Source: a virus. Taken from it: a stretch of DNA of 24,520 bases. Below are positions 1,443 to 22,808 of this stretch, in pieces (the stretch's first letter is position 1; each line of letters opens with the position of its first letter). The stretch is from the IMG/VR virus record IMGVR_UViG_3300049215_000014, positions 1 to 24,520 of that record; one strand, given 5' to 3'. A program made the translations under genes and the position numbers. Below the pieces are notes generated by a model that was not told the origin of the DNA, made no database searches, and saw only the letters and a list, made by a program, of their open reading frames with translations.

Positions 1443-2459
1443 TTACGAGTTGGCCGCCGTGGCAAACGTGCCGGACGAAAAGCCGTTGCCCGCCGCGTAG
1501 CCAGAGATGATCATCTGCGAGGTCGCAGAAGCCCACTTCGTCGCGTTCGTCGTGCATTGGTCGATGACCAGAACGCCGTTGACCGTGGCGTTCAGCGTCG
1601 CCACCACTGCCGGGTTCGACGCCGCGCTGATACCCGTCAGGTTCTGGAAGATGCAGTTCCGGAAGGTCATGCTCGATCCGTTCAGGCAATTGGCCGCCGA
1701 CAGGTCGAGGAACAGCGGGCTCGTCGCGCTCGCCGCCATCATGAACTGGCAGTTATAGAAGTTGTTGCGCTGGGTGCTCGGCCCCTTGACCAGAACGCTC
1801 GAATTGGCGCCCGAACGCTGCACCGTCTCCAGACCGACCGTGCAGGTGTCGAAGGTGTTCTCACCGCAGCCGTCGCCGAGCCCGATGATGTAGGAGCCCG
1901 CACGGGTGGCGCCGTTGGTATGGCCCATGCCGCCGAAGTCGATCAGGCCGAAGTAGTTGCGCTGCCCGGTGATGTCGATCAGCTTCTCGTCGGTCGACGC
2001 CTGGCCGATGCCCTGGAAGAACGAGAAGTTGGCGAACATGCAGTCATTGCCGGTGACCGACACCAGCGGATTGATGTTCGTGGTGGCTGTGGTCAGCGGC
2101 GCAATACGGGCGCGCGAGGCGATGCGCACCGGGGGCGCCATGCCGATCAGGTGGGTGGCGTTCTTCGCCCACGTCAGCGTCGAGGAGATGCGCTGCGTGG
2201 AAGCGGTGGTGCCATCCGACACGATCACGACCACGTCGTTGTGGCCGGAGGTCGTCAGGCTGTACGCCTGCGAGAGCGTCTGGACGGGAAAGTTGGCGGA
2301 GCCGGGGTTGCCGTCGCTGCCGTTCACCGCGTCGCAGAAGTACCAGTTGCCGGTGAAGAACGGAGCGCCGCCCGACGTGATGATCGGAACGCCAGCCACG
2401 GTGAGGCTGGAGAGAGCAGTCGGAGGACCGGCCGGGCCGGAGTTGGTTACGTTTGCCAT
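1443..2459 (-). CDS. Right-handed beta-helix (pectate-lyase-like) virion protein
   Basis: A 338-residue protein beginning MANVTNSGPAGPPTALSS. After a short N-terminal anchor comes the phrase GNWYFCDAVNGSDGNPGS followed by FPVQTLSQAY. This is the typical entry of single-stranded right-handed beta-helix proteins, in which a 'wide field' or pectate-lyase fold begins by laying out repeated coils. The rest shows the expected N-, C-, F- and I-rich ladders (NTFDTCTVG, NNFYNCQFMM, MTFRNCIFQN, VLVIDQCTTN) spaced about 25-35 residues apart, consistent with successive helical coils. Such proteins serve as phage fibres, spikes or decoration. Its start overlaps the end of the endonuclease gene by 13 nt. 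The start codon has only a weak Shine-Dalgarno (AAGGG, 8 nt upstream). No catalytic residues could be assigned. Confidence 0.8.
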   Translation of the reverse strand: MANVTNSGPAGPPTALSSLTVAGVPIITSGGAPFFTGNWYFCDAVNGSDGNPGSANFPVQTLSQAYSLTTSGHNDVVVIVSDGTTASTQRISSTLTWAKNATHLIGMAPPVRIASRARIAPLTTATTNINPLVSVTGNDCMFANFSFFQGIGQASTDEKLIDITGQRNYFGLIDFGGMGHTNGATRAGSYIIGLGDGCGENTFDTCTVGLETVQRSGANSSVLVKGPSTQRNNFYNCQFMMAASATSPLFLDLSAANCLNGSSMTFRNCIFQNLTGISAASNPAVVATLNATVNGVLVIDQCTTNATKWASATSQMIISGYAAGNGFSSGTFATAANS

Positions 2460-3220
2460 GGGAGAATTGCCCTTCTATCCGCAGCTATAGCTGTGGGCTT
2501 GGTTACGCCAGACTCCGGTGGCGCGCCGGTATGCGAGTCCCACGACGGCTCATCCGAATGGCGCCGCAGATACTCGATTGCATTCCGAAGCAGTTCGATG
2601 CTGTCGCCGGCTTTGCCGATCATCTGGTTGCAAGACGCACAGAGCAGGCCGCGAACCTTGCCCGTCTCGTGGCAGTGGTCGACCGAAAGCGGCGTGTTCT
2701 TACCCCACCGCAACATTGTCTCCGGCCTGAAGCAGATGGCGCACACGCCGCTCTGCTCAGCATGCATGCGCTCGTAATCCTCAGACGTCAGCCCGAAGGA
2801 ATTGCGAAGCACGCGCTCCCGGTAGTGCTCCGGGAAAGCAGCTCGGTGCGCCCGCAGGTAAGCCGACCGCCCTTCGCGGCTCTTATGGTCAAAGGACTGA
2901 TCAAGACCCTGCCGCACCGACATGTTGGCGATGCGGATATTCGTGGCATCCCCGTCCTTGAACTCCAGTTGCCGCGCGGGCCACTCGCCGAAATGGTGCA
3001 GCCATGCCAGCCGTGACGCGAGAACCACCGCGCCCCTGACGGTCACCATCCGATAGCCGTTGCGGACGTACCCGACTTCTTTCCCGACCTTGGACAGGTG
3101 CGCGTTGGGGGACGGCTTTGTCCTCCAACGAAGCGACCCCGTCTCCGGATCGTAGCTGAAGAGATGACGCACCTCTTCGGCAGTGATGTCTTTTACCTTG
3201 CGAGCAATACGAGCGGGCAT
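2447..3220 (-). CDS. Endonuclease: degenerate HNH domain plus endonuclease VII domain
   Basis: A 257-residue protein. Residues 1-105 match the N-terminal half of free-standing HNH homing nucleases (SYDPETGSLRWR, SRLAWLHHFGEWPARQ, IRIANM). However, the catalytic HR and DH positions seen in its relative at 13299-13802 are replaced here by SR and by EF, so this domain is probably inactive. Residues 148-220 form a recombination endonuclease VII (T4 gp49-like) domain, with zinc ligands C160/C163 and C194/C197 and the active-site cluster DHCHETGKVRGLLCASCN (181-198). Its role is DNA branch cleavage or homing-type mobility. It lies between the major capsid gene and the beta-helix gene. ATG at 3220 has a strong Shine-Dalgarno (GGAGGT, 7 nt upstream) that is buried in a predicted hairpin. 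Confidence 0.88.
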   Translation of the reverse strand: MPARIARKVKDITAEEVRHLFSYDPETGSLRWRTKPSPNAHLSKVGKEVGYVRNGYRMVTVRGAVVLASRLAWLHHFGEWPARQLEFKDGDATNIRIANMSVRQGLDQSFDHKSREGRSAYLRAHRAAFPEHYRERVLRNSFGLTSEDYERMHAEQSGVCAICFRPETMLRWGKNTPLSVDHCHETGKVRGLLCASCNQMIGKAGDSIELLRNAIEYLRRHSDEPSWDSHTGAPPESGVTKPTAIAADRRAILPWQT

Positions 3221-3289: not shown

Positions 3290-3325
3290 GGGTTGTTACT
3301 TTTGCCCTACTTGTGGACACAACCC
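3290..3325 (-). terminator. Hairpin at the end of the major capsid gene
   Basis: GGGTTGT (3290-3296) and ACAACCC (3319-3325) form a 7-bp stem with a 22-nt loop that starts right at the capsid stop codon. A nested 12-base dyad, TTGTG-GA-CACAA (3311-3322), gives an alternative fold. There is no U-tract, so it may limit rather than abolish read-through or protect the capsid mRNA 3' end. It is the only structure between the capsid stop and the endonuclease hairpin. Confidence 0.35.
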
Positions 3326-4230
3326 TAGCTGGTTGGAAATGAGCCCCAGCACCACCGAGGGTCGTAGTAGCTCATCGCGTAACGCTCGCGTCCGGTGACC
3401 AGCAGGCTCTTCGTGATGAAGTCCACCTGCATGTCGATGTCGAACGGAGCGCGCTCCAGCCAGACGCCACCGGGGATGGTGGTCTTCACGAACCACGCAT
3501 ACTGCGAGGTCAGGAAGTCCAGCACCTCGAAGCCCGCATACTCGCCGGTATACCGAACCGCGTTGATGTCGTTGTTCGCGGTGCCGGGGCGGAGTTCCGT
3601 CTCCATGAGGCGGATCGCCGTATACCGGAGCTGCGGGGGAACCAGCAGCTTCTGCGGACGCGCCATGATGCGCATGCCGGCCTGATCGAGGAAGTACCTG
3701 ATCTGGATGGCAGCGGTTTCCAGCGCGCTTTCGTTCAGGTCGAGGTCGACGCTCGGCCGGTTCTGGTAGGTGTTGCCTTCGACCGGGTGATCAGTCGCGC
3801 ACATCGCCTTGCCGTCGCCGACGACCGCCGAGTTGTAGGTCGTGCCGGTATTCAGCACGTTGGCGGCGAGGATTTCCTTGGTCTGGTTGAACGAGTTCTG
3901 CAGACCGAGGTTCGTCGGGTTGAACTGCGACTTGTAGAGGTTGTCCTCGATCGCCTCCTGCGTGATCGCGTAACCGAGCGCGATGACCGCGGGAGTGATG
4001 TTGTAGACGTACCGGTCGCCCGATGCGTTGTCGAACTCGACCGGGGCACCCTGGTTCTTCAGGGCGGCAAGGCCGAGGTAGCGCTCTTCAGCGACCCGCT
4101 CCTGATTCAGCATCGAGGTGCGCTTGTCCATGTAGCGCGGATACTGCTTCGGGATCAGGTCATACTGCCCGGTGACTTCCATCAGGCCGGGGAGGAGAAG
4201 ATTGCGTTCAGATGCGAGATTGACAGACAT
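3325..4230 (-). CDS. Major capsid protein (HK97-fold type)
   Basis: A 301-residue protein starting MSVNLASERNLLLPGLMEV. It has the features of phage major head proteins. There is a region of early strand-helix content (EERYLGLAALKNQGAPVEFD) and a long-helix-like segment (PAVIALGYAITQEAIEDNLY) followed by LGLQNSFNQTKEILAANVLN. Then come MCATDHPVEGNTYQNRPS and a VPPQLRYTAIRLMETELRPG stretch, a pattern shared with Mu gpT-like and related coat proteins. The ATG at 4230 has GGGGAG about 10 nt upstream. It directly follows the putative decoration protein (16-nt gap), the usual decoration/capsid gene order. No protease or delta-domain extension is seen at the N-terminus, which fits use of a separate scaffold (probably 7162-8109). 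Confidence 0.85.
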   Translation of the reverse strand: MSVNLASERNLLLPGLMEVTGQYDLIPKQYPRYMDKRTSMLNQERVAEERYLGLAALKNQGAPVEFDNASGDRYVYNITPAVIALGYAITQEAIEDNLYKSQFNPTNLGLQNSFNQTKEILAANVLNTGTTYNSAVVGDGKAMCATDHPVEGNTYQNRPSVDLDLNESALETAAIQIRYFLDQAGMRIMARPQKLLVPPQLRYTAIRLMETELRPGTANNDINAVRYTGEYAGFEVLDFLTSQYAWFVKTTIPGGVWLERAPFDIDMQVDFITKSLLVTGRERYAMSYYDPRWCWGSFPTS

Positions 4231-4246: not shown

Positions 4247-4828
4247 TTAGATGCCAGTCGTGGAGCCAAGCCACCAGCCGTTGCCCTTCACGACAACGAT
4301 ATTGCCTGAGCTGGTGCTGTCGTTATTGACCGGCGCATCCAGGACCGAGATGATCTTGAACGGATACGAGGTCGTGGTGCTCGTCGTGGCATTGAGCAGA
4401 GTGGTGGAACGGCCGGTATAGGAGTTGTACGTGCCCGCAACGAAGGTGGCGGTCTCGCCAACCTGCGCCGCCGTGATCGGGCCATTCGACACACGGACGC
4501 GGAACGTCGCGGTCGGATCGTCGATCACATAGGCCAGAACCGAGCCGGCAACCGCCGTACTGGGGCCAGTCCATGCATTCTGCTGCTGGGACGGGGATAC
4601 CTGCGCAGTGTCAGTGTAGGTGCAGCCGTCAAAGACACCGAGAATGGTCGTGTCGCCGGCCGTCGCCAGGTTGACGTAACCGGACGAGTTCAGGACGACC
4701 GGATCGCCTCGGGCGATCGTGGTCGCATAGGTGGAGAGGATCGGGTAGGTGTGGGTCCCGAACGACGGGTCGACCGCGTGCGAAGTACCCACCTGCACAA
4801 ACCCGAACCCCGTGAGGGAGTTCGACAT
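4247..4828 (-). CDS. Probable capsid decoration/structural protein
   Basis: A 193-residue protein starting MSNSLTGFGFVQVGTSHAVD. The sequence is almost entirely beta-prone, with few charges and repeated small residues: PILSTYATTIARGDPVVLNS, VNLATAGDTTILGVFDG, SVLAYVIDDPTATFRVRVSN and GETATFVAGTYNSYTG. The 'GDPVVLNSSG' and 'ILGVFDGCTY' turns resemble small-barrel head-decoration proteins that are co-transcribed with the capsid gene. It lies immediately upstream of the major capsid gene (16-nt gap). The assignment as decoration rests on position and composition; I do not recognise the exact family. Confidence 0.7.
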   Translation of the reverse strand: MSNSLTGFGFVQVGTSHAVDPSFGTHTYPILSTYATTIARGDPVVLNSSGYVNLATAGDTTILGVFDGCTYTDTAQVSPSQQQNAWTGPSTAVAGSVLAYVIDDPTATFRVRVSNGPITAAQVGETATFVAGTYNSYTGRSTTLLNATTSTTTSYPFKIISVLDAPVNNDSTSSGNIVVVKGNGWWLGSTTGI

Positions 4829-4969
4829 GGTTTTTCCAGGATAGGATCGCGGCTTGGCCGACGGCGCGTCAGCGAGACCCGCAGGTCTGTGTCATCCGCT
4901 TCGAGCGCCGAAGCGGGATTAACGCTTAACTTACCAGTTAAACGACGGCGGTTAAGCCGTCAAGCGAGT
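4829..4969 (-). other. AT-richer intergenic region with two hairpins, upstream of the head genes
   Basis: This 141-bp gap is one of the few real intergenic spaces in the late region and contains a TTAA-rich block (4918-4955), unlike the GC-rich surroundings. Two stems are visible: CCGCTTC/GAAGCGG (4896-4902 with 4910-4916, 7-nt loop) and GACGGC/GCCGTC (4944-4949 with 4956-4961, loop GGTTAA). The second lies just past the stop of the glycosyltransferase gene and could be a weak terminator. The AT-rich part may hold a promoter for the capsid genes, but I find no convincing -35/-10 pair. Confidence 0.45.
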
Positions 4970-6544
4970 TTAGCCGAAAGACCGCTCATAGGTCGCGGCC
5001 GCCTCCTTACTCACCATGCTCGCAGCCCCGCAAGCAAGGTCAGGCGCACCCAGTACGCAATGCGCCAGGAGGCTCAGGTGCTTCCACTGCTCCACGGTCA
5101 GCGGCGTCACCGGGTTGATGTAGTTCTTCACATAGATCGCGTCGGCGTCGATGACCTGCGTTGCCATGTCCACCTTCCAGTTCGGCAACTGCCAGACCGG
5201 CAGGTGCTTCTGGCGGATCAGCCGATGCAGGATGAAGCCCCGCCCCCGCAGGTACTTGTCGATCTCCGCAAAGCTCGCCTGCCCCTCGTAGAAGGGAATG
5301 AACGGCACCTCCACCTGCACCACCACGGCAGAACTCAGCGTCCGCATCTGACCGTTCAGAACGTCCATCTCGGCGCCCTGCACGTCGATCTTGAGGAAGT
5401 CGACCGGCAGAGGCCATGCATACCCGTCCGGGTCTCCCTTGGCCTCCGGGATCAGTTCGTCGGCGAGAACCTGATCGAGCATCACCGAGATGTGCTCTCC
5501 CGCCGAGACCGTCTTGCAGTGCTCGGTCATGCGGAAGAAGCCGGCAATGCCTTGGTCGATCTCCTTGATACTGGTCATGCCCGGCGACTGGCAGACCGTC
5601 AGGGTTTCATGCCCGCCGCGCCCGATCAGGTGCGGCAGGTAGCGCTGGTCCTCGCGGTTGAACTGCTTCAGGTGCTCGTACTCGGCCGGGTTGGGCTCAA
5701 AGCCCGTCACCGTGCAAAGCCCCTGCAGGAGCATGTCGGCATAGAGCGGCGTGCCGTCGAAGGCTGCCGCGCCGATGTCGATGACCGATGTCTTCCGCTC
5801 CGGCTTCAAGAGGTCGCGCAAGTGCAGACCGGACATGCCGGGCCGCTTGCGCAGGAAGGATGCGTTCCACTCCTTCTTGCCGACGTGACCGATGGGCTGG
5901 ACGGCGTTCGCCCAGATGGTGCCGCCGGAACGGTTGTAGCGTTCGCAGAACGAATAGTCGTCCGACAGCACGCCAACATCCACTTCGACCGTGGGATCAA
6001 AGGCCGAAAAGATGCGCGCGATCCCATTCTTGTCGAGGAACTTCCAGTCGACATACTTGTCGTCGCGGCGGTCGTGAACCACGATCTGACCGGCTTCCAG
6101 CATTTGCGTGATAGCTTCGCGCTGGATCAGAAGCAGGCCACCGCCAACCCCGGCAACCTCCATGAAGCCGCTCTCAGTGACGCGGGCGCCCTTCTTCGTC
6201 CGCACTACCCACTCAATCTCGTCCGAACCTCGCGAGGGATAGATCGCACCCACAATGGGTTTGTCGAACGCGATCATGTCGAGGACGACGCGGGCATCGC
6301 AAGCCATATCCGCGTCGATCAGCAAAAAGTCCGTGCAGTCCGGGAAATTGTCGTACCAGTACGTCAGAAACCCGTTCCGCACCCGCACGATGTCGGCATG
6401 CGAGGACGACATGTACCCAAAGAACATGTCCTTCTCGACCAAGGCTCGGATGATACCCGCAACCGTGGCCGACGTTTCCTCCTCGATCTTCCCGCCATAG
6501 CAAGGCAGGAAAAGCAGGACCTTGCGCTTCTTTCCTCCCGACAT
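4970..6544 (-). CDS. Glycosyltransferase-FkbM methyltransferase fusion protein
   Basis: A 524-residue two-domain enzyme. Residues 7-235 look like a GT-A glycosyltransferase: VLLFLPCYGGKI at the start, the DxD-type metal/nucleotide-sugar motif LLIDADM (74-80), AFDKPIVGAIYPSRG (92-106), and DDYSFCERYNRSGGTIW (195-211), which is common in phage and viral glycosyltransferases. Residues 252-445 match the FkbM SAM-dependent methyltransferase family: the motif I-like VIDIGAAAFDGT (254-265), acidic loop GFEPNP (281-286), VDFLKIDVQGAEMDVLNG (381-398) and VVVQVEVPF (407-415). A C-terminal segment ends at 524. It lies in the head module, three bases after the preceding structural gene. I infer addition of a methylated sugar to a virion protein or host-surface glycan; the acceptor is unknown. 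Confidence 0.85.
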   Translation of the reverse strand: MSGGKKRKVLLFLPCYGGKIEEETSATVAGIIRALVEKDMFFGYMSSSHADIVRVRNGFLTYWYDNFPDCTDFLLIDADMACDARVVLDMIAFDKPIVGAIYPSRGSDEIEWVVRTKKGARVTESGFMEVAGVGGGLLLIQREAITQMLEAGQIVVHDRRDDKYVDWKFLDKNGIARIFSAFDPTVEVDVGVLSDDYSFCERYNRSGGTIWANAVQPIGHVGKKEWNASFLRKRPGMSGLHLRDLLKPERKTSVIDIGAAAFDGTPLYADMLLQGLCTVTGFEPNPAEYEHLKQFNREDQRYLPHLIGRGGHETLTVCQSPGMTSIKEIDQGIAGFFRMTEHCKTVSAGEHISVMLDQVLADELIPEAKGDPDGYAWPLPVDFLKIDVQGAEMDVLNGQMRTLSSAVVVQVEVPFIPFYEGQASFAEIDKYLRGRGFILHRLIRQKHLPVWQLPNWKVDMATQVIDADAIYVKNYINPVTPLTVEQWKHLSLLAHCVLGAPDLACGAASMVSKEAAATYERSFG

Positions 6545-6547
6545 CGG

Positions 6548-7147
6548 CTAAACGCCTCGCTCGCCGTCCGGGTATTCGTAGGCCGAAGCATCCGGCGCCA
6601 CCGCAATGGCCTGCTCCCGCTTGACGCTGACCAGCGACCGTCCATGCCGATCGGCGCGCGGCAACTGGCCGGCGTCGTTCAGCTTCAACTGGCGGAAGTT
6701 GTTGCGGACCTGGTTCTCGGCGTTCTCTCGGTCCTCCTGCTCGGCTTCGAGGCTCATCTCCTCGGGGCGTTCCTCCAGGCGAAGGCCGCCGATGACGATC
6801 TCGTTGCCGGTGAAGCCGGCGCCAACTATCTCGGGGTGCCGGTCGGGCGGGACAGGCTTCCACCCGTTCATCGCGTACATGATGGAGCGGCGCTTGGGCA
6901 GTTCGTCGTTGCCGAGGACCGAGACCGCATTCCACTGGTAGCGCATGTGCTCGGGTCGGCGGCTGTCGTCGATCCAGAACAGATCGCCGTTCTGGTTGAC
7001 GCGGAGACGGCCGGTTTCCGTGCGGCCGGGGGCGCGGCGCTGGTCGCTCCTCTGGCTGCGGCGCTGCGAGGCGGTGGCTTCGGCAGCCTCACGCACCGGG
7101 GGACGGCCCCGGCGACGGGCAGGCTGCGGCATGGCTTCTTCGGTCAT
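6548..7147 (-). CDS. Conserved structural-module protein, unknown function
   Basis: A 199-residue hydrophilic protein. ATG at 7147 is chosen over the upstream codon at 7165 because GAGGAG lies 10 nt before it. Residues 1-45 are Arg/Ala/Gln-rich and probably disordered (PQPARRRGRPPV resembles an AT-hook-like RGRP core). The middle is more ordered: GDLFWIDDSRRPEHMRYQWN, MYAMNGWKPVPPDRHPEIVG and EIVIGGLRLEERPEEM. The tail is acidic-basic, with a possible coiled coil (EQEDRENAENQVRNNFRQLK). It sits between the scaffold-like gene and the glycosyltransferase fusion, so a head-assembly role is likely. No catalytic motif is visible. Confidence 0.72.
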   Translation of the reverse strand: MTEEAMPQPARRRGRPPVREAAEATASQRRSQRSDQRRAPGRTETGRLRVNQNGDLFWIDDSRRPEHMRYQWNAVSVLGNDELPKRRSIMYAMNGWKPVPPDRHPEIVGAGFTGNEIVIGGLRLEERPEEMSLEAEQEDRENAENQVRNNFRQLKLNDAGQLPRADRHGRSLVSVKREQAIAVAPDASAYEYPDGERGV

Positions 7148-7161
7148 GGTTTGTTCTCTCC

Positions 7162-8109
7162 TCAAGCCACCGGCGTCAGCGGCTTCTCTCGGTTCATCCG
7201 GTCGCGGTTCTGGGCGTAGCGGGCGAATATCTCGCCCTGCGAGAACTTCGATCCGTCCGGCTTCTTCATCTCGCCCATCGTCGACAGCGCAGCCTCCTTC
7301 TCCGCAGGCGACAGGCTGAACGTCTGCCGGGTCTGGGCGTGCGAGGGCGACATGGAACGGCTCGGGGCTGCGGCCATTGCAGCGGTCCTCTGACGGGTTT
7401 GCGGGCGGGCTTCGGTCTGGTAGCCGTCATCGGCAACCGGACGTTCACCCAAGGCAGTCTCGACGTGGGCGTAGTACTCGGGCGAGTCCGCCGCATGCCC
7501 CAGCACCTTTTCGGCGTAGTTGGCAGCGGCAATCGCCTTGGAACGCCAGCCTTCGTCGGTCAGGAAGCGCGGGTGCGCGTTCACCCACTGGCGGGCCTGC
7601 GGGGTCATGCCAGCGAGCGGATCGGCTGGTGCCTGCCGGGCCGTCTGCTCGGCCTGCTGGGCCTCCTGTGCGAACTTGCCCTTGGCGTCGTTGATCCAGC
7701 GCTGCTGGCCCTCAGCCTGCTTCAGCCTGATCTTGGCGTCGGCGAGCTGGTCGATGGCTTCCGTCGCAGCGTCGAAGTTGCCTTCCGTCTGCGCGCGGGT
7801 GACAGCCGCCTTCAGCGAGGCGATGTCGTTGGTGGCGGCAGCCAACGCCTGCGCGATGGCCGACTCCTGCGCGCCGAAGCGCTGGTGGATGGCAGTCTGC
7901 TGCTGCTGGCGGGCCTCGGCCTCGCGGGCCTGTGCCTCGGCAGCGCGGGCGTTGGCTTCGTCGCGGGCCTTGTTCGCAGCCTCAAGCTGCGCCTTCATGT
8001 CCGCGATCGGGTCGGGTTCGGTGTCGGGTTGTTCCTGCACCATCACGGCAGGAGCAGGAGTAGCCTGCTCCTCGGTTGCCGCAATGGCTTCGTCGAGTAC
8101 GTCAGCCAT
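7162..8109 (-). CDS. Probable scaffolding protein
   Basis: A 315-residue acidic, Ala/Gln/Glu-rich protein starting MADVLDEAIAATEEQATPAP. A long predicted coiled coil covers roughly residues 35-160 (MKAQLEAANKARDEANARAA, then AIAQALAAATNDIASLKAAV). It is followed by WVNAHPRFLTDEGWRSKAIA, LGHAADSPEYYAHVETALGE and a basic, probably capsid-binding C-terminus (KFSQGEIFARYAQNRDRMNR). Acidic coiled-coil proteins of this size between portal and capsid genes are typical phage scaffolds; similar proteins with the 'hPrfL/f...yaha...lG' motif occur in many phages. The role is inferred from composition and position. Confidence 0.72.
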   Translation of the reverse strand: MADVLDEAIAATEEQATPAPAVMVQEQPDTEPDPIADMKAQLEAANKARDEANARAAEAQAREAEARQQQQTAIHQRFGAQESAIAQALAAATNDIASLKAAVTRAQTEGNFDAATEAIDQLADAKIRLKQAEGQQRWINDAKGKFAQEAQQAEQTARQAPADPLAGMTPQARQWVNAHPRFLTDEGWRSKAIAAANYAEKVLGHAADSPEYYAHVETALGERPVADDGYQTEARPQTRQRTAAMAAAPSRSMSPSHAQTRQTFSLSPAEKEAALSTMGEMKKPDGSKFSQGEIFARYAQNRDRMNREKPLTPVA

Positions 8110-8333: not shown

Positions 8334-8598
8334 GTGCGTCCCCGAACAGTTGGCGCTCTATCGCGCTTGTCAGTGCTTCGGTCGCAGCCTTTATCCGTGC
8401 TTCGACGAAGGGATGAGGTTTGGGGGTCAGACGCTCCCAGTTCTCCCACGCCTCGATGAAAGCCAGCTTGCCGCGATCGCCATGAAGCGGGCGGCATGTG
8501 TGGGACAGACCGTGGCGCCACTTGTAGATCAGCCGGCGACGACGCTTGTCCCGCAGCTTGAGGCGCGTCTCGTCGACGAGGCTCAGATACCCGCTCAC
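8326..8598 (-). CDS. Small basic protein with IYKWRHGL motif, paralogue of 9193-9399
   Basis: A 90-residue protein. The start is GTG at 8598 because it forms a 4-nt GTGA overlap with the co-chaperonin stop. Residues 13-48 are very basic (RLKLRDKRRRRLIYKWRHGL) and contain C and H residues in CRPLHGDRGKLAFIEAWENW. The same block occurs in the gene on the other side of the co-chaperonin (9193-9399): RRMRWIYKWRHGL and HADRGKLRTICAWERF. The C-terminal third is an amphipathic helix (ARIKAATEALTSAIERQLFG). Nucleic-acid binding is plausible from charge; no function is known. It probably arose by local duplication. Confidence 0.7.
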   Translation of the reverse strand: MSGYLSLVDETRLKLRDKRRRRLIYKWRHGLSHTCRPLHGDRGKLAFIEAWENWERLTPKPHPFVEARIKAATEALTSAIERQLFGDARA

Positions 8599-8993
8599 CA
8601 GACGACATCCGGCCGATCGAGAATGCCGGCGATATGCACGTCCTCGATAATCCGCGTCGGCCACTCGCCCAGCGTCATCCGGCGCGCGTCGCCGATGTTC
8701 ATCAGCACCCAGTCGCCGACCTTCGGCACATTCCCCGGCCAGACGTGCGTGTCGTCTTCCTTGAACGCCAGCGGCCCCATCTTCAGGACCAGCCCCACGC
8801 GCCCCTGGTAGTCGTCCTCGTCGATCGTCTTGTGGGTGAGGAAGATGCCGCCTGCGGTCTTCTCCGCCCGCTTGTAGGTGGCGACCAGAACGCGGGCGCC
8901 CAGCATCTCGACCTTGTCGACGAGCGGTCCGATCTTCTCCCAGATTTCGTCTCGCGGATCGTTGGTATGAACCGCCATGATAGCCTTTGGCAC
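8595..8993 (-). CDS. groES: GroES-type co-chaperonin
   Basis: A 132-residue protein with a GroES/Cpn10 fold across residues 28-129: first strand LGARVLVATYKR (31-42), mobile loop AEKTAGGIFLTHKTIDEDDY (43-62) with the chaperonin-binding tripeptide IFL (I50-F51-L52) in place of IVL, then GRVGLVLKMGPLAF, PKVGDWVLMN and IIEDVHIAGILD. In E. coli GroES the equivalent loop is GGIVLT. It is longer than cellular GroES (about 97 residues) because of a 28-residue N-terminal extension and an insert at the roof-loop region (KEDDTHVWPGNVP). The GTG start has GGAGG 7 nt upstream; an ATG lies 15 nt further in. Phage co-chaperonins such as T4 gp31 redirect host GroEL to fold the capsid protein, which fits its place in the head-assembly module. 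Confidence 0.87.
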   Translation of the reverse strand: MPKAIMAVHTNDPRDEIWEKIGPLVDKVEMLGARVLVATYKRAEKTAGGIFLTHKTIDEDDYQGRVGLVLKMGPLAFKEDDTHVWPGNVPKVGDWVLMNIGDARRMTLGEWPTRIIEDVHIAGILDRPDVVW

Positions 8994-9887: not shown

Positions 9888-10063
9888 CAGTCTTGTCCTT
9901 TCACGAAAGTGAATTGGCTCCAGTACCGATCGCGCGTGATCTCGCTTTCGGCAGCCAGCTTTTCAACTGGGGAGCGCTTGTCGTCCTCGTCATACAGGGC
10001 TTGGAAACAGCGGCGCAGATGGTCCACGTCAACGGCCCCGCGCGCAAACTGATAGGCGTTCAC
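9887..10063 (-). CDS. 58-aa protein encoded between portal and Pro/Gly-rich gene
   Basis: A short gene with GTG start at 10063 that overlaps the portal stop as GTGA, and a stop that overlaps the next ATG as TGATG, so it fits exactly into the operon. The translation begins MNAYQFARGAVDVDHLRRCF and continues with QALYDEDDKRSPVEKLAAES, ending YWSQFTFVKGQD. It is hydrophilic and probably helical. Both junctions being coupled strongly supports it as a real gene despite its size. The function is unknown. Confidence 0.72.
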   Translation of the reverse strand: MNAYQFARGAVDVDHLRRCFQALYDEDDKRSPVEKLAAESEITRDRYWSQFTFVKGQD

Positions 10064-12261
10064 TGCACCGTCCTCGGTTGCTGGGCCTGCTGTCCGTTGA
10101 ACTGACTGTTGACGGGATCAGGCGGCACGTTGTTCAAAGCCTCGATGCCGGCCAAGAGCAACTGCACCCGCCCCTGTATCTCGGCTATCCGCTCCCGGCT
10201 CGCCCGATCAGCCGCCGCGTCCGCCATGTCCGCCATGTGCTTCTGCAGGTCGGCCTTGATCTGCGCCATCTTCGCGGCAGTGTCCGCCTGCGCCTTCTGG
10301 GCCTGGATCTGCGTCTTCTGCTGCTCGTTCTGCACCTGCGCCTGCACGACAGCCGCTTGCGCCTGCATCATCAGCGATTGCGGGTCTTGTCCCGGAGGCG
10401 GCGCCGGCTGCGGCGGCAGCAACAGCCGCTGGATCGTGTTCTCGCCAACCCGGATCGTCTCCAGCAGATACTCCTGCGTCGCCCGCTGGTCGTACAGGCC
10501 GGGGTTCTGCTGTGCCAGCATCGCCACGCCCGACGCCATCAGGATACGGTGCGTCTGCGCCGGAATGTTCGGGTCGCTCGCAGGCACCAGGCTCAGGTCG
10601 TCGAGTTCTTCCTTCTTCCAGTGCCGTGTGGCGTTCGGGTTGTCCTGCCACAGGCTTTCGGGATACTCGGCGAACAACTCCCGCAAGAGGATGAACTCCT
10701 CCTGCTGGCTCGTGTGGTCGCGCTTGTGGACGCTGGTCATCATCTGCGTCTGCTGCTCGATCATCGCCATGACCGTGCCCACAGGCATGTTCGTGCGGCC
10801 CTCGCCGATCTCAAGGTCGATCGTGGCCGCCTTGCTCTTGGCGTTCTGCTGGATCATGTCCCAGAGCTGGATAAGCTCCGGCATCGGCCCCTTGTACGGG
10901 AGCGGCATGATGACATCGGACAGCTTCGCGCCAATCCCCGGATCGATGTCGATGAACTGTCCCGGCCCCGGCATGATGTTGTTCGGGTCGTTGCGGCTGC
11001 GCACCTTGATGCCGCCCGGGAAGTTCGAGAACATCCCCGCGTCGATCAGAATGCGCTCGATCGCCGTCAGCGCCTTGGCGTCCTGCCCGAGAATGTGCAG
11101 GTAACCCAGGTCCAAGAACCCCATCGCGGGGATGAAGCCGTACTTTACGAAGCGCTTGCGCGGGCGCTTCATCTCGTCATCAGGACGCCAGTTCCTCCGG
11201 ATCTCAAGGACCGTCATCGTGTCCTTGTCGATCGTCACCTTGTAGGGCAGCGGATCAAGGTCCATGTCCGGCGAGTCAGTCCCGCCGCCGGTCTTCTCCA
11301 GGTCCAGATAGGTGTAACACTCGTAGATCGTATGCGGCACATCCTGCTGCCGCTCGGGCGTCGCCTGGATGCCGCGAATCTTCGCTTCCGTCGTCTGGAT
11401 CGGCGTCGGGATGCCCGCCGGCACCAATCCAATCGACGTGTCGATCCACACGCCAGCTTCTACCATCGCCCGGTACTGGACGTGCGTCATCATGATCTGG
11501 TGCGTGACGCGCGTCGCATTCGCCATGTCGGTGGCGTCGTTGCTGACGATCAGGTCAGGCAGTTCGACGCTCTCCGAGACCGGCCGCTTGCGGATCGGGT
11601 CGTAATAGACCTTCTTGAACGCATTGCCGCCGAATGCCTTCGCGAACAGCATCCGGTCCGTGTCGGGGTAATACTCGCTGGCCGTCACCGTGAGCCAGTG
11701 ATTCATGTCCTCTTCGAGATCGGCCGCAAGCTGGTCGCGCTCGGGGTTCTCGTCACCGTCGTTGCGCACCTTGACCGGGCCGGCGGCGGGCAATAGCTCG
11801 CCCCGCTCCATTGCCTGCGCCCGCAGACACGCCTCCAGCAGAATGCCGTGGCGAACACGGCTGTTGAACGCACCCGCGATGCTGCCGCCCTGCGTCGATG
11901 TGCCCGGGGCAGCGTCGTTGATCTTCAGGCCGAGGAGGTCGAGCCCGGCCTTGTATTCCTCCACCCATTCGCTGCGGCTGCGCTCGTCGGCGCTGATGGC
12001 ATCGAGCAGGTTGGCCGCGATCGTCGGGCACTGGCCGGCATAGCGCTTGGCCAGGTTGGCGTCGAAGCCGTCGTCACCATCGTCCTCGTCATCGCCCCCG
12101 GTCGTGAGTTCGACTGTGACGCCACCATCCTCGTGCTCGGTGACGACGACCGCATTGTCCTCTGCCGGTTCGGGAGGATTGAAGCCCGACAGGCCAGCGC
12201 CGAAGGAAGATGCCGGCGTGGCGTCAGGGACCGGAGAGTCAGGAAAGCCGCCAGTGCTCAA
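10060..12261 (-). CDS. Portal protein
   Basis: A 733-residue protein, in the size range of P22 gp1/N4-type portals. Residues 1-65 are acidic and disordered (EDNAVVVTEHEDGGVTVELT). The core starts around residue 68 (ANLAKRYAGQCPTIAANLLD). Recognisable portal features include SRVRHGILLEACLRAQAMER with GELLPAAGPVKV, FAKAFGGNAFKKVYYDP, KRFVKYGFIPAMGFLDLGYL, then GGIKVRSRNDPNNIMPGPGQ and PVGTVMAMIEQQTQMMTSVH. Residues about 630-700 form a Gln/Ala-rich coiled coil (QAQAAVVQAQVQNEQQKTQI) that would lie at the crown. It is the DNA-packaging vertex to which terminase docks. The start is probably TTG at 12261, 15 nt after GGAGGGG; an out-of-frame ATGA overlap at 12271 opens a 10-codon reading frame. 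Confidence 0.88.
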   Translation of the reverse strand: MSTGGFPDSPVPDATPASSFGAGLSGFNPPEPAEDNAVVVTEHEDGGVTVELTTGGDDEDDGDDGFDANLAKRYAGQCPTIAANLLDAISADERSRSEWVEEYKAGLDLLGLKINDAAPGTSTQGGSIAGAFNSRVRHGILLEACLRAQAMERGELLPAAGPVKVRNDGDENPERDQLAADLEEDMNHWLTVTASEYYPDTDRMLFAKAFGGNAFKKVYYDPIRKRPVSESVELPDLIVSNDATDMANATRVTHQIMMTHVQYRAMVEAGVWIDTSIGLVPAGIPTPIQTTEAKIRGIQATPERQQDVPHTIYECYTYLDLEKTGGGTDSPDMDLDPLPYKVTIDKDTMTVLEIRRNWRPDDEMKRPRKRFVKYGFIPAMGFLDLGYLHILGQDAKALTAIERILIDAGMFSNFPGGIKVRSRNDPNNIMPGPGQFIDIDPGIGAKLSDVIMPLPYKGPMPELIQLWDMIQQNAKSKAATIDLEIGEGRTNMPVGTVMAMIEQQTQMMTSVHKRDHTSQQEEFILLRELFAEYPESLWQDNPNATRHWKKEELDDLSLVPASDPNIPAQTHRILMASGVAMLAQQNPGLYDQRATQEYLLETIRVGENTIQRLLLPPQPAPPPGQDPQSLMMQAQAAVVQAQVQNEQQKTQIQAQKAQADTAAKMAQIKADLQKHMADMADAAADRASRERIAEIQGRVQLLLAGIEALNNVPPDPVNSQFNGQQAQQPRTVQ

Positions 12262-12808: not shown

Positions 12809-13299
12809 CTCGCCTCCGCCATGCGCTTCTCCAGCGCCGTGTCGTGCTCGTCCCGATAGGGCCCCATGAACAGGTTCGCCGGGACCTTCTTCAGCTTCTC
12901 CACGTCATCGGCCTTGATGTATGGCTTGAGCGCCGCCTCGTATGCGGCGGGGTCGATCCCGTTGTGCCGCAGCCTCCGATGCTCTGCGGTGGTCGCCAGC
13001 TTGTGAGCCTGCTGGTACTTCATCCCGAGGACCGTCATCAGGGCGTGCTCGGTCCGCTCGTGAACCTGCAAGTAGGGAACCGGGTTGATGCTCAGCCGCC
13101 CGATCTTGAGCGAGGTCGGCAGATGGCGGTCGATGTAGACGGTACGCCCATCGTTGCTGATGCCGCCCGTGTAAGGCACGTCGTGCTGCCGGTCGACCTT
13201 GGCGCCACGAGCGAGCTTCTGCCTGACCTTCGGGTCGCTGATGGCGCTGTCGAGCAGATGGGAAGGGCCTTCGCTCTTCGGGTGGTGGCCGCAGGACAT
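12805..13299 (-). CDS. Conserved phage protein with HExxEH motif
   Basis: A 164-residue protein starting MSCGHHPKSEGPSHLLDSAI. The core is VPYLQVHERTEHALMTVLGM followed by KYQQAHKLATTAEHRRL: H80-E81-x-x-E84-H85, with H99 and H107 as further candidate metal ligands. This conserved phage family carries the 'HE..E.aL...lG..Y..AH..At..E' pattern, which looks like a metal site, although it is not a canonical HExxH protease. The second half (AYEAALKPYIKADDVEKLKK, VPANLFMGPYRDEHDTA) is helical. It lies between the homing-type endonuclease and the portal-proximal cluster, so a packaging or head-assembly role is plausible. Enzymatic activity is unproven. Confidence 0.72.
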   Translation of the reverse strand: MSCGHHPKSEGPSHLLDSAISDPKVRQKLARGAKVDRQHDVPYTGGISNDGRTVYIDRHLPTSLKIGRLSINPVPYLQVHERTEHALMTVLGMKYQQAHKLATTAEHRRLRHNGIDPAAYEAALKPYIKADDVEKLKKVPANLFMGPYRDEHDTALEKRMAEAR

Positions 13300-13802
13300 C
13301 AGTGGTGCGCAAACTCGCCGAACAACTCGCGCGCCTTTGCGGCGTAAGCAGCAGCCGCCGCATCGATGGAGTCGAAGTGGCCCAAGTTGTGCCTCACGTT
13401 CGCGTGCTGGACCGAAGCCTTGATATAGGTCCCGTACTTGGTTGAGTAAACCGTCACACCCTTGGGCAACCGGTTGAACGACTGCTTTACGCGGTTGCCG
13501 GCGTTGTCAGTCGGCGACGCCAAGCGAAGGTTCGCGATCCGGTTATCGTCGACCACGCGGTTCTTGTGGTCGATCCATTCCGGCGGCCACTCGCCATGAA
13601 CGTACAGCCACGCCAGCCGATGCGCCAGGTAGCGGCGCCCGTCCAACTTGATCGTCATGTATCCCTTGGGCATGCGAGAGCCCGCCACCGCGCCCGCGCG
13701 CATGGTGCGACCGCGCCCACTGAGGCGCCACGTAAACACGCCAGTCTCCGGATCGTAGTGCAAAAGCTCTCTCAAGCGAGCCTGCGTCACGTCACACGTC
13801 AT
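13299..13802 (-). CDS. HNH homing-type endonuclease with AP2 DNA-binding domain
   Basis: A 167-residue protein. Residues 8-100 form an HNH_3-type nuclease: HYDPETGVFTWR, LAHRLAWLYVHGEWPPEWID, with H61, D78-H79 and N87/N91 as active-site candidates. Residues 112-164 form an AP2-like DNA-binding domain (LPKGVTVYSTKYGTYIKASV, HFDSIDAAAAAYAAKARELF). This architecture is common in phage free-standing homing endonucleases. The start (ATG 13802) overlaps the terminase large subunit's end by 11 nt and the stop shares a base with the next ATG, so it is compactly integrated. Its N-terminal half is clearly related to that of the endonuclease at 2447-3220. Confidence 0.85.
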   Translation of the reverse strand: MTCDVTQARLRELLHYDPETGVFTWRLSGRGRTMRAGAVAGSRMPKGYMTIKLDGRRYLAHRLAWLYVHGEWPPEWIDHKNRVVDDNRIANLRLASPTDNAGNRVKQSFNRLPKGVTVYSTKYGTYIKASVQHANVRHNLGHFDSIDAAAAAYAAKARELFGEFAHH

Positions 13803-15504
13803 AGGGCCTCATCACAGGTCGTGCTGCCTTGTAGTCGGCGAGACGATCGAGTTGCGCCTGACGCTCATCCCGCGTCGACAGCAAGCCTTGGTCCCGCAGA
13901 AACTTGAGCGCCTGGATGGCGGACGAGCTCAAGTCGTCGTGTGCCGCTTTGGGCAGCATTGCCATCTCGTCAATTAGGTTCGTGGCCCAATCCCGATCCG
14001 GCGCATAGACGATCTTTGCCGCAAACAGGTGGCTGACGGCATGCGCCCGCGCGATGATGTCGCCGCCCCCGTGCTTCTTCGGGTCCCACGGATACACCCC
14101 GAACTCCTCGCCCTTGCACAGGCGCGCAATCTCCTGGATCACCGACCAGCCATTCGCCTTGGCCTCGATCAGCAACGAATCCGCCTTGAAGCCCAAGATG
14201 GCCTCGTATTCCGTGCCATCCCGCCGTGTGCGCTTCTCCTTGCCGCGACAGGTCAGGATGATCTTCTCGACCAGTTCATGAAACGCAAGCCGGTCCTGCC
14301 ACGCCCAGAGCAACACCACCTTGATCAGGTTGCGCTCGTTGGTGAACACGCCCCAGACCGTGCAAGCGCTCCAGTCGTTCTCTTCCTTCGTCGTCAATGC
14401 CGTGTCGACACTGACCACGACATAGTCCATCGGCGGGAACTCAAGCCACTTGCGCTCGCCGGTCGCAGGATCGATCGGGTTGCCCCGCTCGTCGAAGGTC
14501 TCGCCCTCCGGCGGCCACAGTTGCCACCAGTCCGTCTTGAAGATGCCACCACCCGGAGGCGCGGGCGCCTGCTGGTACTGCCCCGACCAGATGAACGGGT
14601 TGCGCTTGAATGGCTCCAGATAGTCCAGGCTGAACCGCTCAGGCCACAGCAGCTCGCCCTGTTCCGTGCGCGGATCGTTCCACCCGAGCATCGTCGAGCA
14701 ATGCCGGCGGGGATCGTATTCCTCCGGCAGGCAGAGATGCACCCAATCCTTTTCGGTCGCGAGGATGTGGCCAGCCAGGTCCCGCTCGTGCAGCCGCTGC
14801 ATGATCAGAATCGTTGCCGTCGTGCGCGGGTCGGTGACACGCGATCGAAGCGTCGCCTCGTATGAGGCGATCACGCCCTCCCGGATTGCTTCCGACTCGC
14901 CTTCGTCCGCCTTGATCGGATCGTCGATGATGCGGATATCGCCACCGCGGCCAAGGACCGCGCCGCCCATTGGCGAACTGATCCGCGAGCCGCCCGCAGT
15001 CGTGTCGAACTTGTTCTTCGCCGACTGGTCCGACGCGATCTTGACCCGCTTGCCCCAGCGCTCCTGATACCAGTCGCTTTCAATCAGCCGGCGGGCCTGA
15101 ACCGCAGCATCGTACACCACCGCGTCGCCATAGCTGACGCAGAGGAACTTGACCTGCGGCCCACAGAGCGGCCGATCAGCTTCGGGTGTCTGCGCCCATA
15201 TCCAGCACTGGAACAGCACCGAGACGATCAGCGTCTTGCTGTGCCTCGGCGCAATGTTGATCAGGAGCTTGCGTATGCGCCCGTCTGCGACCGCCTCAAG
15301 GTGCTGGCAGATTGCCTCGATATGCCAGTTGCTCTCATAGGTCGAGGCGTCGATGACGCGCCAGGCTGCAGCGCAGAACTCGCTGAAGCTTGCTTCCAGC
15401 CTTTCGACTTCCTTGCGTCGCCGCATCTCCGCCTCGAGCCGCTGCAGCACGCTCGGCGCCGACGAAGGATCGAAGGGCAGCGATGATCTCTCCAAGCTCC
15501 TCAT
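13792..15504 (-). CDS. terL: Terminase large subunit (packaging ATPase-nuclease)
   Basis: A 570-residue protein of typical length. The ATPase domain shows NIAPRHSKTLIVSVLFQCW (residues 83-101, a Walker A variant of the PPRHGKS/T type), Walker B IRIIDDP (190-196) and coupling motif TATILIMQRLHERDLAGHIL (228-247). The nuclease domain starts with DYVVVSVDTALTTKEENDWS (359-378; D366 and D376), continues with GFKADSLLIEAKANG (437-451), and ends with the metal ligand region HDDLSSSAIQAL (521-532). It powers DNA translocation through the portal and makes packaging cuts. It overlaps the small-subunit gene by 170 nt if the ATG at 15504 is used; ATG 15426 is an alternative that shortens the overlap to 92 nt. 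Confidence 0.93.
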   Translation of the reverse strand: MRSLERSSLPFDPSSAPSVLQRLEAEMRRRKEVERLEASFSEFCAAAWRVIDASTYESNWHIEAICQHLEAVADGRIRKLLINIAPRHSKTLIVSVLFQCWIWAQTPEADRPLCGPQVKFLCVSYGDAVVYDAAVQARRLIESDWYQERWGKRVKIASDQSAKNKFDTTAGGSRISSPMGGAVLGRGGDIRIIDDPIKADEGESEAIREGVIASYEATLRSRVTDPRTTATILIMQRLHERDLAGHILATEKDWVHLCLPEEYDPRRHCSTMLGWNDPRTEQGELLWPERFSLDYLEPFKRNPFIWSGQYQQAPAPPGGGIFKTDWWQLWPPEGETFDERGNPIDPATGERKWLEFPPMDYVVVSVDTALTTKEENDWSACTVWGVFTNERNLIKVVLLWAWQDRLAFHELVEKIILTCRGKEKRTRRDGTEYEAILGFKADSLLIEAKANGWSVIQEIARLCKGEEFGVYPWDPKKHGGGDIIARAHAVSHLFAAKIVYAPDRDWATNLIDEMAMLPKAAHDDLSSSAIQALKFLRDQGLLSTRDERQAQLDRLADYKAARPVMRPYDV

Positions 15505-20712: not shown

Positions 20713-21191
20713 GCGGCCACCCGCCACACCATCCGATGATGCCACGCGCAGAAGCTCGACTTGGGCGCCCACTTGTCGGCCCCGCAGAACATCTGCCCTG
20801 CACCCGTCGCCACGCCAACCGGATACCGACAATGCCGATGGCTCAGGTCCATCAGGCTGACGGCAGTCTCGGCGGTCGGCTCGACAAGGAACAAAAGGAT
20901 CGGCTCGGGCTTTACCTTCGGCGGGCGCATGATCGCGTTCATCGGCTTCCTCCGGTCCTTGCGGGGATTCGCAGATGCGTTCGTGCGGCGCTTCACGCCC
21001 ACAGTCGGAATGGTGGTGCGTGTCCGCTTGCTGATGCCGAGTTCCTTCATGCGGTCGCGATGCATGCGGCCGATGACGGCATTGCGGGTGGTGTCGCCGA
21101 GGTCGCGGGCGATCATCCCGGCAGACCATCCTTGGTTCCACAGGTCACGGGCGCGGGTAAGACGCTCGGGCGTCCATGGCGCGTAGATCAT
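20709..21191 (-). CDS. gcrA: GcrA family cell-cycle transcription regulator
   Basis: A 160-residue protein. ATG 21191 overlaps the MT-A70 stop as ATGA. The N-terminal domain is a clear GcrA match: WTPERLTRARDLWNQGWSAG (6-25) and IARDLGDTTRNAVIGRMHRD (27-46), the helix set that reads methylated GANTC in Caulobacter. The linker (51-110) is basic and disordered. The C-terminal segment HCRYPVG (120-126) ... GQMFCGADKW (133-142) ... FCAWHHRMVW (148-157) matches the zinc-free Cys/Trp/His sigma70-interaction domain of GcrA (LC.WP.G....FCG......YC..H). So both the DNA-binding and RNA-polymerase-contact parts are retained. It would steer host RNA polymerase to adenine-methylated promoters, including the phage's own. 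Confidence 0.9.
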   Translation of the reverse strand: MIYAPWTPERLTRARDLWNQGWSAGMIARDLGDTTRNAVIGRMHRDRMKELGISKRTRTTIPTVGVKRRTNASANPRKDRRKPMNAIMRPPKVKPEPILLFLVEPTAETAVSLMDLSHRHCRYPVGVATGAGQMFCGADKWAPKSSFCAWHHRMVWRVAA

Positions 21192-21775
21192 GCCGCCACC
21201 TCTCCAAACTTGCCCACCTCGTTGCCCCACGCATCCCAGCCCTTGCGGCGCTCCCGCGCAAACAGTTCGACGTAGGGACCACCCACCAGGCGCTCGATGC
21301 GGTCGTGAATGCCGTCAGGCTTGCGAGAATGCTCCCGGCGCGGCGCAATGATCCCCTGCCGCACATCCGCGTGCAGGCGCTTCGGCTTGCCACGGGTTGC
21401 CAGAAGGCTCGGCTCGGTGTTGGCGCGCGTCCAGTAGCCCATGCCGGCAAAGGGCGTCGCGTCGTCGGCGAAAAGCCGGTACGGGTCCGCTTTCATCCAC
21501 GAGAAGGCACAGGTCTTGTAGGTAAAGCCCCAATGGTCGAGGAGTTCAAACGCATCGCGCAACGTAGGCCAGCACGACCACATGAACAGCACGCAGTCAT
21601 CGGCGGCGAGATCCCCGACCGGCAGCGCGCCTATGTCGTCCACCGCCATCGTCGGATAGTGGTTGTCGGCAGACCGCGCCGTGCCCTTTCCGCTCCAAAC
21701 CTCAAATCGCCACGGAGGGTCGGCTAGGATCGCCCCGTAATGCCCGCGCCGCAGGTCGCCGAAGGGCCAACTCAC
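21188..21775 (-). CDS. MT-A70 family adenine-N6 DNA methyltransferase
   Basis: A 195-residue protein starting with GTG at 21775 (GTGA overlap with the preceding stop). The SAM-dependent amino-methyltransferase motif DPPW lies at residues 19-22 (AILADPPWRFEVW), followed by HYPTMAVDDIGALPVGDLAA (39-58), DDCVLFMWSCWPTLRDAFEL (59-78), and the conserved GYWTRANTEPSLLATRGKP ... RREHSRKPDGIHDRIERLVG, ending ELFARERRKGWDAWGNE. This is the phage MT-A70 family, distinct from CcrM. The target sequence is unknown. It is the immediate neighbour of gcrA, whose cellular counterpart senses m6A. Confidence 0.92.
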   Translation of the reverse strand: MSWPFGDLRRGHYGAILADPPWRFEVWSGKGTARSADNHYPTMAVDDIGALPVGDLAADDCVLFMWSCWPTLRDAFELLDHWGFTYKTCAFSWMKADPYRLFADDATPFAGMGYWTRANTEPSLLATRGKPKRLHADVRQGIIAPRREHSRKPDGIHDRIERLVGGPYVELFARERRKGWDAWGNEVGKFGEVAA

Positions 21776-22095
21776 TTGCGTCCCTCCGCCACCATCAGCA
21801 CCCGCAGGAAATCCGACAGGCGCATGACCATCAGGGGCTCCTGCCGGTCAGCCTTGACCACCAGGCCCTTGTGCTCGCCGAGCCAGCCATAGAGCTGCGC
21901 AAACCCGGCAGCCCGGCTCTTGCATTCGAACACCCAATCCTCGCCCAGCACCGGACAGGACACGTCGCCCACATACGAGCCTCCGGCGGCGCCAGAGAGA
22001 GGCACACGCTCGGCTGCGAGGCCGGCGTCCTGCAGGATGTGGACGATGGACCGCTCCATGCGGGCGCCCTTGTCGCGGGAGGCGCGACCGGTCAT
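21772..22095 (-). CDS. Holliday-junction resolvase-like PD-(D/E)XK nuclease
   Basis: A 107-residue protein starting with ATG 22095 (ATGA overlap with the methyltransferase stop). It shows the archaeal Hjc/phage resolvase core: SRDKGARMERSIVHILQDAG (6-25; E14), GSYVGDVSCPV (39-49; D44), WVFECKSRA (54-62; E57-x-K59) and FAQLYGWLGEHKGLVVKADR (65-84). These supply the E-D-ExK catalytic set. It should cut branched DNA produced during replication or recombination. The longer frame to 22254 is rejected because it overlaps the methyltransferase gene out of frame. Confidence 0.85.
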   Translation of the reverse strand: MTGRASRDKGARMERSIVHILQDAGLAAERVPLSGAAGGSYVGDVSCPVLGEDWVFECKSRAAGFAQLYGWLGEHKGLVVKADRQEPLMVMRLSDFLRVLMVAEGRK

Positions 22096-22808
22096 GCAGC
22101 AGCCCTCATCATGCCAGGGTGAAACGTGCGGGCGATGTATCGGCTTAACGGCAGGGGTATCTTCGCGATCATCGCCGAAGCGAACTTGCGCTTCGCCGAC
22201 TTGCTGCCCGAAGATGCCAAGCTGTCGGGTGTGCGCGGGCCGTCGTTGAACCATTGCGTTCCAGCCGGGGCCTTGCGCCCGTCAGGAACCATGCGATTGC
22301 AGGACTGTAACGTGCCGTTTTCCCGCCACCCGCTTCCGTCATGCTTGGCGGCCTTGAAAACGGGTGGCATCAACGCAGGAACATCGCCCCAAAGGTAAAA
22401 GCTACCGAAACACCATCGTGCCCTGCCAACCCATTTCTGCGCGCCGCGCACGTTCTCGACCACCAGCGGGATGTGCCGGCCAGCGGCCTCGCAAGCCTCG
22501 CGCTGAATGCGAAAGCAAGCATCGAACAGCGTATTGTCCGGTGGCGGCAACGCCTTCGCCCGCTTCCACGGCATCGCCCGATAGCTGTATGCTTGGCATG
22601 GTGGAGACGCGACAATCAGCGCCGCATCGCGGAACTGGCTGCCGTGCAACGTCAGCACGTCCTGGACAACAAGTTGCGCCGGGTAGCGATGCTCCCCGTA
22701 GACATGCCGCTCGATGTCGAAGCCGACGACATCATAGCCCTCGGCCAGCAAACCCTCGGTCCAGCCGCCAAGGCCGCAGTATAAATCTATGCCTAGCGGC
22801 CTGCTCAT
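22092..22808 (-). CDS. C5-cytosine DNA methyltransferase
   Basis: A 238-residue protein starting MSRPLGIDLYCGLGGWTEGL; the ATG overlaps the gapR stop as ATGA. SAM motif I is DLYCGLGGWTEGL (8-20), catalytic PC motif SPPCQAYSY (68-76; C71), and motif VI VVENV (116-120). Later parts WFNDGPRTPDSLASSGSKS and KIPLPLSRYIARTF correspond to the target-recognition and C-terminal motif region, though the whole enzyme is shorter than most (about 330-400 residues). It could modify phage DNA against host restriction. Recognition sequence unknown. Confidence 0.88.
   Translation of the reverse strand: MSRPLGIDLYCGLGGWTEGLLAEGYDVVGFDIERHVYGEHRYPAQLVVQDVLTLHGSQFRDAALIVASPPCQAYSYRAMPWKRAKALPPPDNTLFDACFRIQREACEAAGRHIPLVVENVRGAQKWVGRARWCFGSFYLWGDVPALMPPVFKAAKHDGSGWRENGTLQSCNRMVPDGRKAPAGTQWFNDGPRTPDSLASSGSKSAKRKFASAMIAKIPLPLSRYIARTFHPGMMRAAA

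Follow-up and report, generated by a model that had tools for sequence, protein, structure and literature searches.

The head operon of a tailed phage contains a gene in which a predicted glycosyltransferase (GT) is joined to a methyltransferase, and its position raises the question of what such an enzyme would modify. The DNA analyzed here, hereafter the window, is the 24,520-nt stretch of IMG/VR record IMGVR_UViG_3300049215_000014, and the gene is an open reading frame on its (-) strand at 4970-6544 (Table 1). It starts with ATG and has no internal stop, as expected for the 524-residue polypeptide of the initial annotation, and a single GT domain stands ahead of a SAM methyltransferase in one chain. 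The codon-position GC of the gene (0.62/0.39/0.83) is the same as that of the MCP, portal and terminase genes, and because it equals that of the capsid genes and supports a (-) strand gene, an opposite-strand ORF of 822 aa at 4751-7219 (+) was rejected as a mirror artefact. The protein has no hydrophobic stretch of transmembrane grade, and promoter and terminator scans stayed at chance level.

Table 1. Positions of the fusion gene, its domains and motifs, and the surrounding head genes in the 24,520-nt window
Feature	Positions	Strand	Evidence
GT-A glycosyltransferase + FkbM methyltransferase fusion, 524 aa	4970..6544	(-)	ORF, translation, Pfam/PHROG domains
GT-A domain, residues 1-236	5837..6544	(-)	phrog_1574, AF2 model, Foldseek, profile match to 2c0n
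DxD motif, D77-A78-D79	6308..6316	(-)	Both Asp (D77, D79) invariant across 47 aligned relatives
Second GT motif, D196 through H220 (DYSFC...HVG)	5885..5959	(-)	D196, C200, H220 and G222 invariant in relatives' alignment
FkbM methyltransferase domain, residues 240-524	4973..5827	(-)	PF05050, bacterial homologue, full model
SAM-binding motif I, DIGA, residues 256-259	5768..5779	(-)	D256, G258 and A259 invariant in relatives' alignment
FkbM motif DVQGAE, residues 387-392	5369..5386	(-)	D387, Q389, G390 and E392 invariant in relatives' alignment
Major capsid protein (MCP), 301 aa, candidate acceptor	3325..4230	(-)	phrog_371 major head protein
Y, conserved 193-aa protein directly before MCP gene, candidate acceptor	4247..4828	(-)	phrog_37556, homologues upstream of MCP
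X, conserved head-cassette protein, 205 aa	6548..7165	(-)	tblastn and HMM homologues, same position in relatives
Probable scaffold protein, 315 aa	7162..8109	(-)	Name inferred from position and composition; homologue at same place in MW202675
GroES-like co-chaperonin	8595..8993	(-)	PF00166 E 7e-7, phrog_3188, syntenic in relatives
Portal protein	10060..12261	(-)	phrog_1216, 41% to MW202675
Terminase large subunit (TerL)	13792..15504	(-)	phrog_38 E 9e-80

The initial annotation had read the N-terminal half as a GT-A enzyme with a DADM motif, which falls at residues 77-80. This call needed further evidence because the Pfam GT models miss the N-terminal half: residues 1-243 have no match above cut-off, and relatives of the domain match Anp1 and Glycos_transf_2 weakly. 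Residues 63-227 are matched by phrog_1574 (E 2e-8), to which no function is assigned, and a profile built from 47 GT relatives matches one sequence in the PDB, the STIV protein A197 (2c0n, E 6e-4). Because MAFFT misplaced the GT-only rows in a mixed full-length alignment, the GT domain was folded alone and the full-length model was made from fusions and FkbM rows. The AlphaFold model of the GT domain (pLDDT 84.6, pTM 0.85) is matched by Foldseek to 2c0n, LH3, ColGalT1 and domain 1 of PBCV-1 A064R (structures 2p6w/2p73). The N-terminal half combines all the marks of a phrog_1574 GT-A enzyme, namely the profile match, the GT-A fold, the DxD and the C-terminal histidine, and the original call is upheld by phrog_1574, the AF2 model with Foldseek and the invariant aspartates.

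The C-terminal half is more readily placed. FkbM enzymes are O-methyltransferases that act on small molecules and sugars, and residues 255-437 match the Pfam family Methyltransf_21/FkbM (PF05050) with an E-value of 1.8e-17 and 64.4 bits against a cut-off of 22.7, with TIGR01444 passing just over its cut-off (38.0 versus 37.7). A Pseudosulfitobacter FkbM protein is 37% identical over 265 aa, and in the full-length model this half has a pLDDT mostly >90; a search of INPHARED phages with it returned no match. The FkbM-type SAM fold that had been proposed is thereby confirmed by PF05050, TIGR01444 and the intact SAM motifs, and of the domain search suggested along with it, Methyltransf_21 was recovered and the Pfam GT families were not. 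Judged from their folds and intact motifs, both halves look catalytically competent. Sequence searches against solved structures with the whole fusion protein, Y and the MCP gave no matches, and the whole fusion used as a single query had none in viral contigs and genome contigs, a search relying on short exact seeds that are too strict.

By domain content the fusion belongs to the viral GT-methyltransferase enzymes, a kind already known, and its closest functional precedent is by analogy the chlorovirus protein PBCV-1 A064R, in which GT and methyltransferase activities of one protein provide the O-methylated rhamnose that completes the glycan of the major capsid protein (PMC9614988). Both are single viral chains with an N-terminal GT-A and a C-terminal class I SAM methyltransferase, but A064R has two GT domains and a methyltransferase in 638 aa, whereas the window protein has one GT and FkbM in 524 aa; A064R serves a eukaryotic virus and an N-glycan acceptor whereas the window protein is from a phage, and we detected no sequence relationship between them. 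STIV A197, proposed to glycosylate the STIV coat protein (PMC4187194), likewise is a viral GT-A fold with a DxD and the sole PDB sequence matched by our profile, but it comes from an archaeal virus, lacks a methyltransferase domain and is remote (16% in the Foldseek alignment). Among phages, GTs of mycobacteriophages Che8, Corndog and Myrna glycosylate the phages' own capsid and tail-tube proteins according to the available text of two reports, which in that text mention no fused methyltransferase (PMC12363180, PMC11256854), whereas the window GT is fused. The GT genes of Maravista (cluster F1) lie near the genome 3' end, outside the head cassette.

The reading of the neighbors as capsid and head genes is corroborated by PHROG or homology for the TerL, portal, GroES and MCP genes, the window MCP being 54% identical to the annotated MCP of MW202675. 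The gene order is TerL - portal - GroES - scaffold - X - [GT-FkbM] - Y - MCP, with X directly upstream of the fusion gene across a 3-bp gap and 141 bp between the fusion gene and Y. This cassette order is shared with MW202675, Roseobacter phage CRP-902, Pelagibacter phages HTVC023P and HTVC027P, DSL-LC04 and 023Pt_psg01; the genes for X, Y, MCP, GroES and portal keep their synteny in these six phages, though some genes are undetected in some, X and the scaffold being too diverged for tblastn in several. The GT-FkbM fusion is absent from all six, and X and Y are nearly adjacent in each except MW202675. Scaffold-X-Y-MCP was also found in ∼70 of 80 IMG/VR contigs chosen by MCP similarity, with the scaffold homologue at the same position in most, and a single one of the 80 (L278) has a GT at the X-Y site. 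Because cassette relatives keep X and Y without the fusion, this comparison of gene order marks the gene as accessory, an insertion that separates X from Y in an otherwise conserved head cassette. The phages nearest to the window by MCP have an empty X-Y site, so the enzyme would be dispensable for head assembly in general. The exceptional X-Y gap of MW202675 (L248:15053-16196) holds small ORFs and a tRNA-Met in place of glycan genes, which suggests an insertion hotspot. The GroES-like gene (8595-8993, (-)) keeps its position in the head cassette in all annotated relatives examined.

The GT of L278 is 37% identical to the window GT over 227 aa, which makes it far nearer than the distant GTs retrieved without it. 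A six-GT alignment of distant members was too diverse to seed a search, and a two-sequence alignment of the window GT and that of L278 retrieved 49 loci, 46 of which encode close GT relatives (30-37% identity); L278 is again among these, and 45 IMG/VR loci were analyzed. Wherever Y was detectable (38 of the 45) the order GT - Y - MCP was preserved (38/38), with the GT either immediately ahead of Y-MCP or elsewhere in that interval, and X, detected in 13 of the 38, was always upstream of the GT. The X-Y interval carries a recurrent set of further genes. In it, 27/38 loci have a SAM methyltransferase from the two families tested, usually touching the GT: Methyltransf_11 in 25, usually directly upstream of it, and FkbM in five. 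Genes for radical SAM/SPASM proteins occur in 23 of the 38 islands, for a TPP enzyme in nine and for a DegT aminotransferase in five, with a few for hexapeptide transferase, PfkB/cytidylyltransferase, transketolase and acetylesterase. Neither methyltransferase family was found in 11 of the 38, of which at least two (L349 and L371) begin at the GT. We had also considered L278 as a GT without a methyltransferase and rejected this, as it is a truncated version of the fuller L372, which has Methyltransf_11, TPP and radical-SAM genes upstream.

The fusion gene is the only gene between X and Y in the window, where radical SAM, TPP enzyme and DegT genes are absent, and by its predicted domains it unites the pair of activities found together most regularly in the island. 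In three loci (L347, L348 and L350) a stand-alone FkbM gene stops ∼12 bp short of the GT, and in L357 and L363 one lies 3' of the GT, disrupted in the latter. In another locus (L337:6083-7732) the island GT carries, fused at its N-terminal side, a 300-aa domain that belongs to no known family; L338, L341 and L343 encode this 300-aa protein in a gene of its own just upstream, and island neighbors, therefore, do fuse to the GT. The search for the same fusion in related phages, which the initial annotation had recommended, yielded the separate GT and methyltransferase at the same site and no close full-length homologue. The fusion gene would represent, in compact form, the glycan island found at this site in related phages. 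More broadly, we give about even weight to the proposal that the head operon in a whole group of tailed phages from aquatic habitats houses, where scaffold-X meets Y-MCP, an island dedicated to virion glycans and built on the GT-A clade, a methyltransferase and often unusual-sugar enzymes, with the window as its minimal fused form. This wider island is the more interesting finding, and the literature searched, with most subscription journals outside its scope, contains no description of a phage GT-FkbM fusion or of a head-operon glycan island.

The linkage to coat genes bears directly on the acceptor. A recognized coat gene is present in 42 of the 45 close-GT loci, at a distance of ≤3 kb in 35, whereas none of 80 control loci from a distant stand-alone phrog_1574 clade has any of the three coat types tested, a control that can overlook unfamiliar coat proteins. 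The same GT clade also stands near a P22-type coat gene in five loci (L373-L377), so that its linkage to the coat gene spans two head modules of different type. The initial annotation had argued from location to virion modification; from one genome that argument was weak, and it becomes strong because the GT relatives hold the same head-cassette place (38/38 Y loci, 27/38 with a methyltransferase, and the five P22-type loci). Since the GT clade stays by the coat gene, with a methyltransferase in the interval, modification of the virion is favored over that of the host surface. We regard it as unlikely that the enzyme alters a host surface glycan (LPS O-antigen or capsule) against superinfection, as seroconversion genes do, and merely rides in the head operon. 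Bacterial FkbM relatives do lie in polysaccharide clusters (on an Azospirillum plasmid), FkbM proteins act also on small molecules and surface polysaccharides, and phage LPS-modification genes are known; however, such a role fits poorly with the strict coat-gene linkage in two head modules, with a protein that has no transmembrane segment and no GtrA/GtrB-like membrane partner seen beside its gene, and with a late-operon position that would be ill timed for superinfection exclusion. In L373 and L374 the gene directly 5' of the GT weakly matches the MptE-like family (PF01973).

We consider it fairly probable that the window protein is a bifunctional cytosolic virion-glycan enzyme that adds a sugar to a phage head protein and O-methylates it. 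The GT-A half would move the sugar from a nucleotide donor by means of the DxD and a divalent metal onto the head protein, or onto a glycan already present there, and the FkbM half would then O-methylate the transferred sugar from SAM, capping the chain. The enzyme would act on the head protein during or before assembly, and its gene is probably co-expressed late with the capsid genes. The activity, the order of steps and a virion-protein acceptor rather than host material are what we infer, with Y or MCP as the best candidates. It is highly improbable that the enzyme instead acts on phage DNA, with glucosylated or otherwise hypermodified bases as the product. Phage DNA glucosyltransferases exist and DNA methyltransferases are encoded in the window, but FkbM enzymes are generally O-methyltransferases of small molecules or sugars, the GT fold resembles GT-A enzymes for protein or glycan, the gene is in the head operon and not among replication genes, and a non-systematic look through the window turned up no base hydroxymethylase.

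GT-methyltransferase fusions also occur elsewhere. Three loci (L162, L164 and L165) encode a GT fused to Methyltransf_24 shortly 3' of an HK97-type MCP gene and before the head-tail adaptor, and MW202691 has a GT fused to an unclassified class I methyltransferase, 3' of a P22 coat and an endonuclease gene; these are independent fusions, in two further lineages of unrelated phages. Beside tail-fiber genes there are also GT-FkbM chains, 410 to ∼1350 aa long, that share the domain order of the window protein. The uncultured Caudovirales proteins among them (BFVD A0A6J5M7M7; IMG/VR L022, L025 and L033) share the GT-then-FkbM order with the window protein, the IMG/VR three aligning with it end to end and A0A6J5M7M7 (BFVD names such proteins "Methyltransferase FkbM") matching over 509 columns, but overall identity is 23-26%, several have extra GT domains, and their neighbors are tail genes. 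Two chains of 1150-1350 aa (L025:3191-7246 and L033:3788-7246) combine GT4-, GT2- and phrog_1574-type GTs with FkbM beside tail-fiber genes and are apparent assembly lines for a methylated glycan. The occurrence of related GT-FkbM multidomain proteins beside tail-fiber and collagen-like genes (L022, L025 and L031-L033) is compatible with an acceptor in the tail or another virion protein; we hold this to be quite unlikely for the window protein, as the gene neighbors Y and MCP in the window and in its closest GT relatives, where the downstream Y-MCP pair is constant.

Phylogenetic analysis speaks to the origin of the two halves. In the GT tree the window sequence groups with the island GTs (SH-aLRT 98), although the branches are long and the AU test does not reject its union with the tail-linked fusions (p=0.38). 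For the FkbM half the nearest proteins are bacterial FkbM members (≤41% identity), within which its tree places it with moderate support, apart from the tail-linked fusions; a grouping with the latter is again not rejected (AU p=0.15). Each match in 385 alphaproteobacterial genomes spans one domain, and none of these genomes has both halves in one gene. The simplest reading suggested by the sequences is that a bacterial FkbM would have been captured and fused in a separate event. That the gene is no more than a recently captured passenger without a fixed role seems very unlikely; its absence from most MCP-close relatives and the long branches in both trees would fit, but the motifs of both domains are intact, the coding signature is the same as that of the capsid genes, and the pairing of GT and methyltransferase recurs at the same site. 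A Pseudoroseomonas plasmid FkbM relative (L009:2927-4831) lies directly 3' of the gene for a Thr-rich protein of highly repetitive sequence, which may be a substrate for glycosylation.

Virion glycosylation in phages is documented mainly for mycobacteriophages, and methyl-capped capsid glycans mainly for giant algal viruses; if the proposed function is true, methylated capsid glycans would be a recurring trait of environmental tailed phages. Such coatings could change adsorption, particle stability or recognition. The fusion is a small enzyme with two named candidate acceptors, Y and MCP. The window Y has a Ser+Thr content of 27.5%, the highest of the 77 homologues compared (mean 19%); as a general acceptor signature this enrichment was rejected, since the island-bearing relatives are not enriched (p=0.35). 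Elsewhere in the window, two DNA methyltransferase genes (21188-21775, phrog_359, and 22092-22808, phrog_363, both (-)) lie away from the head module. An Endonuclease VII/HNH-type protein is encoded directly 3' of the MCP gene (2447-3220, (-)) and an HNH endonuclease gene (13299-13802) adjoins the terminase gene; the two resemble insertions of the homing type within the structural operon.
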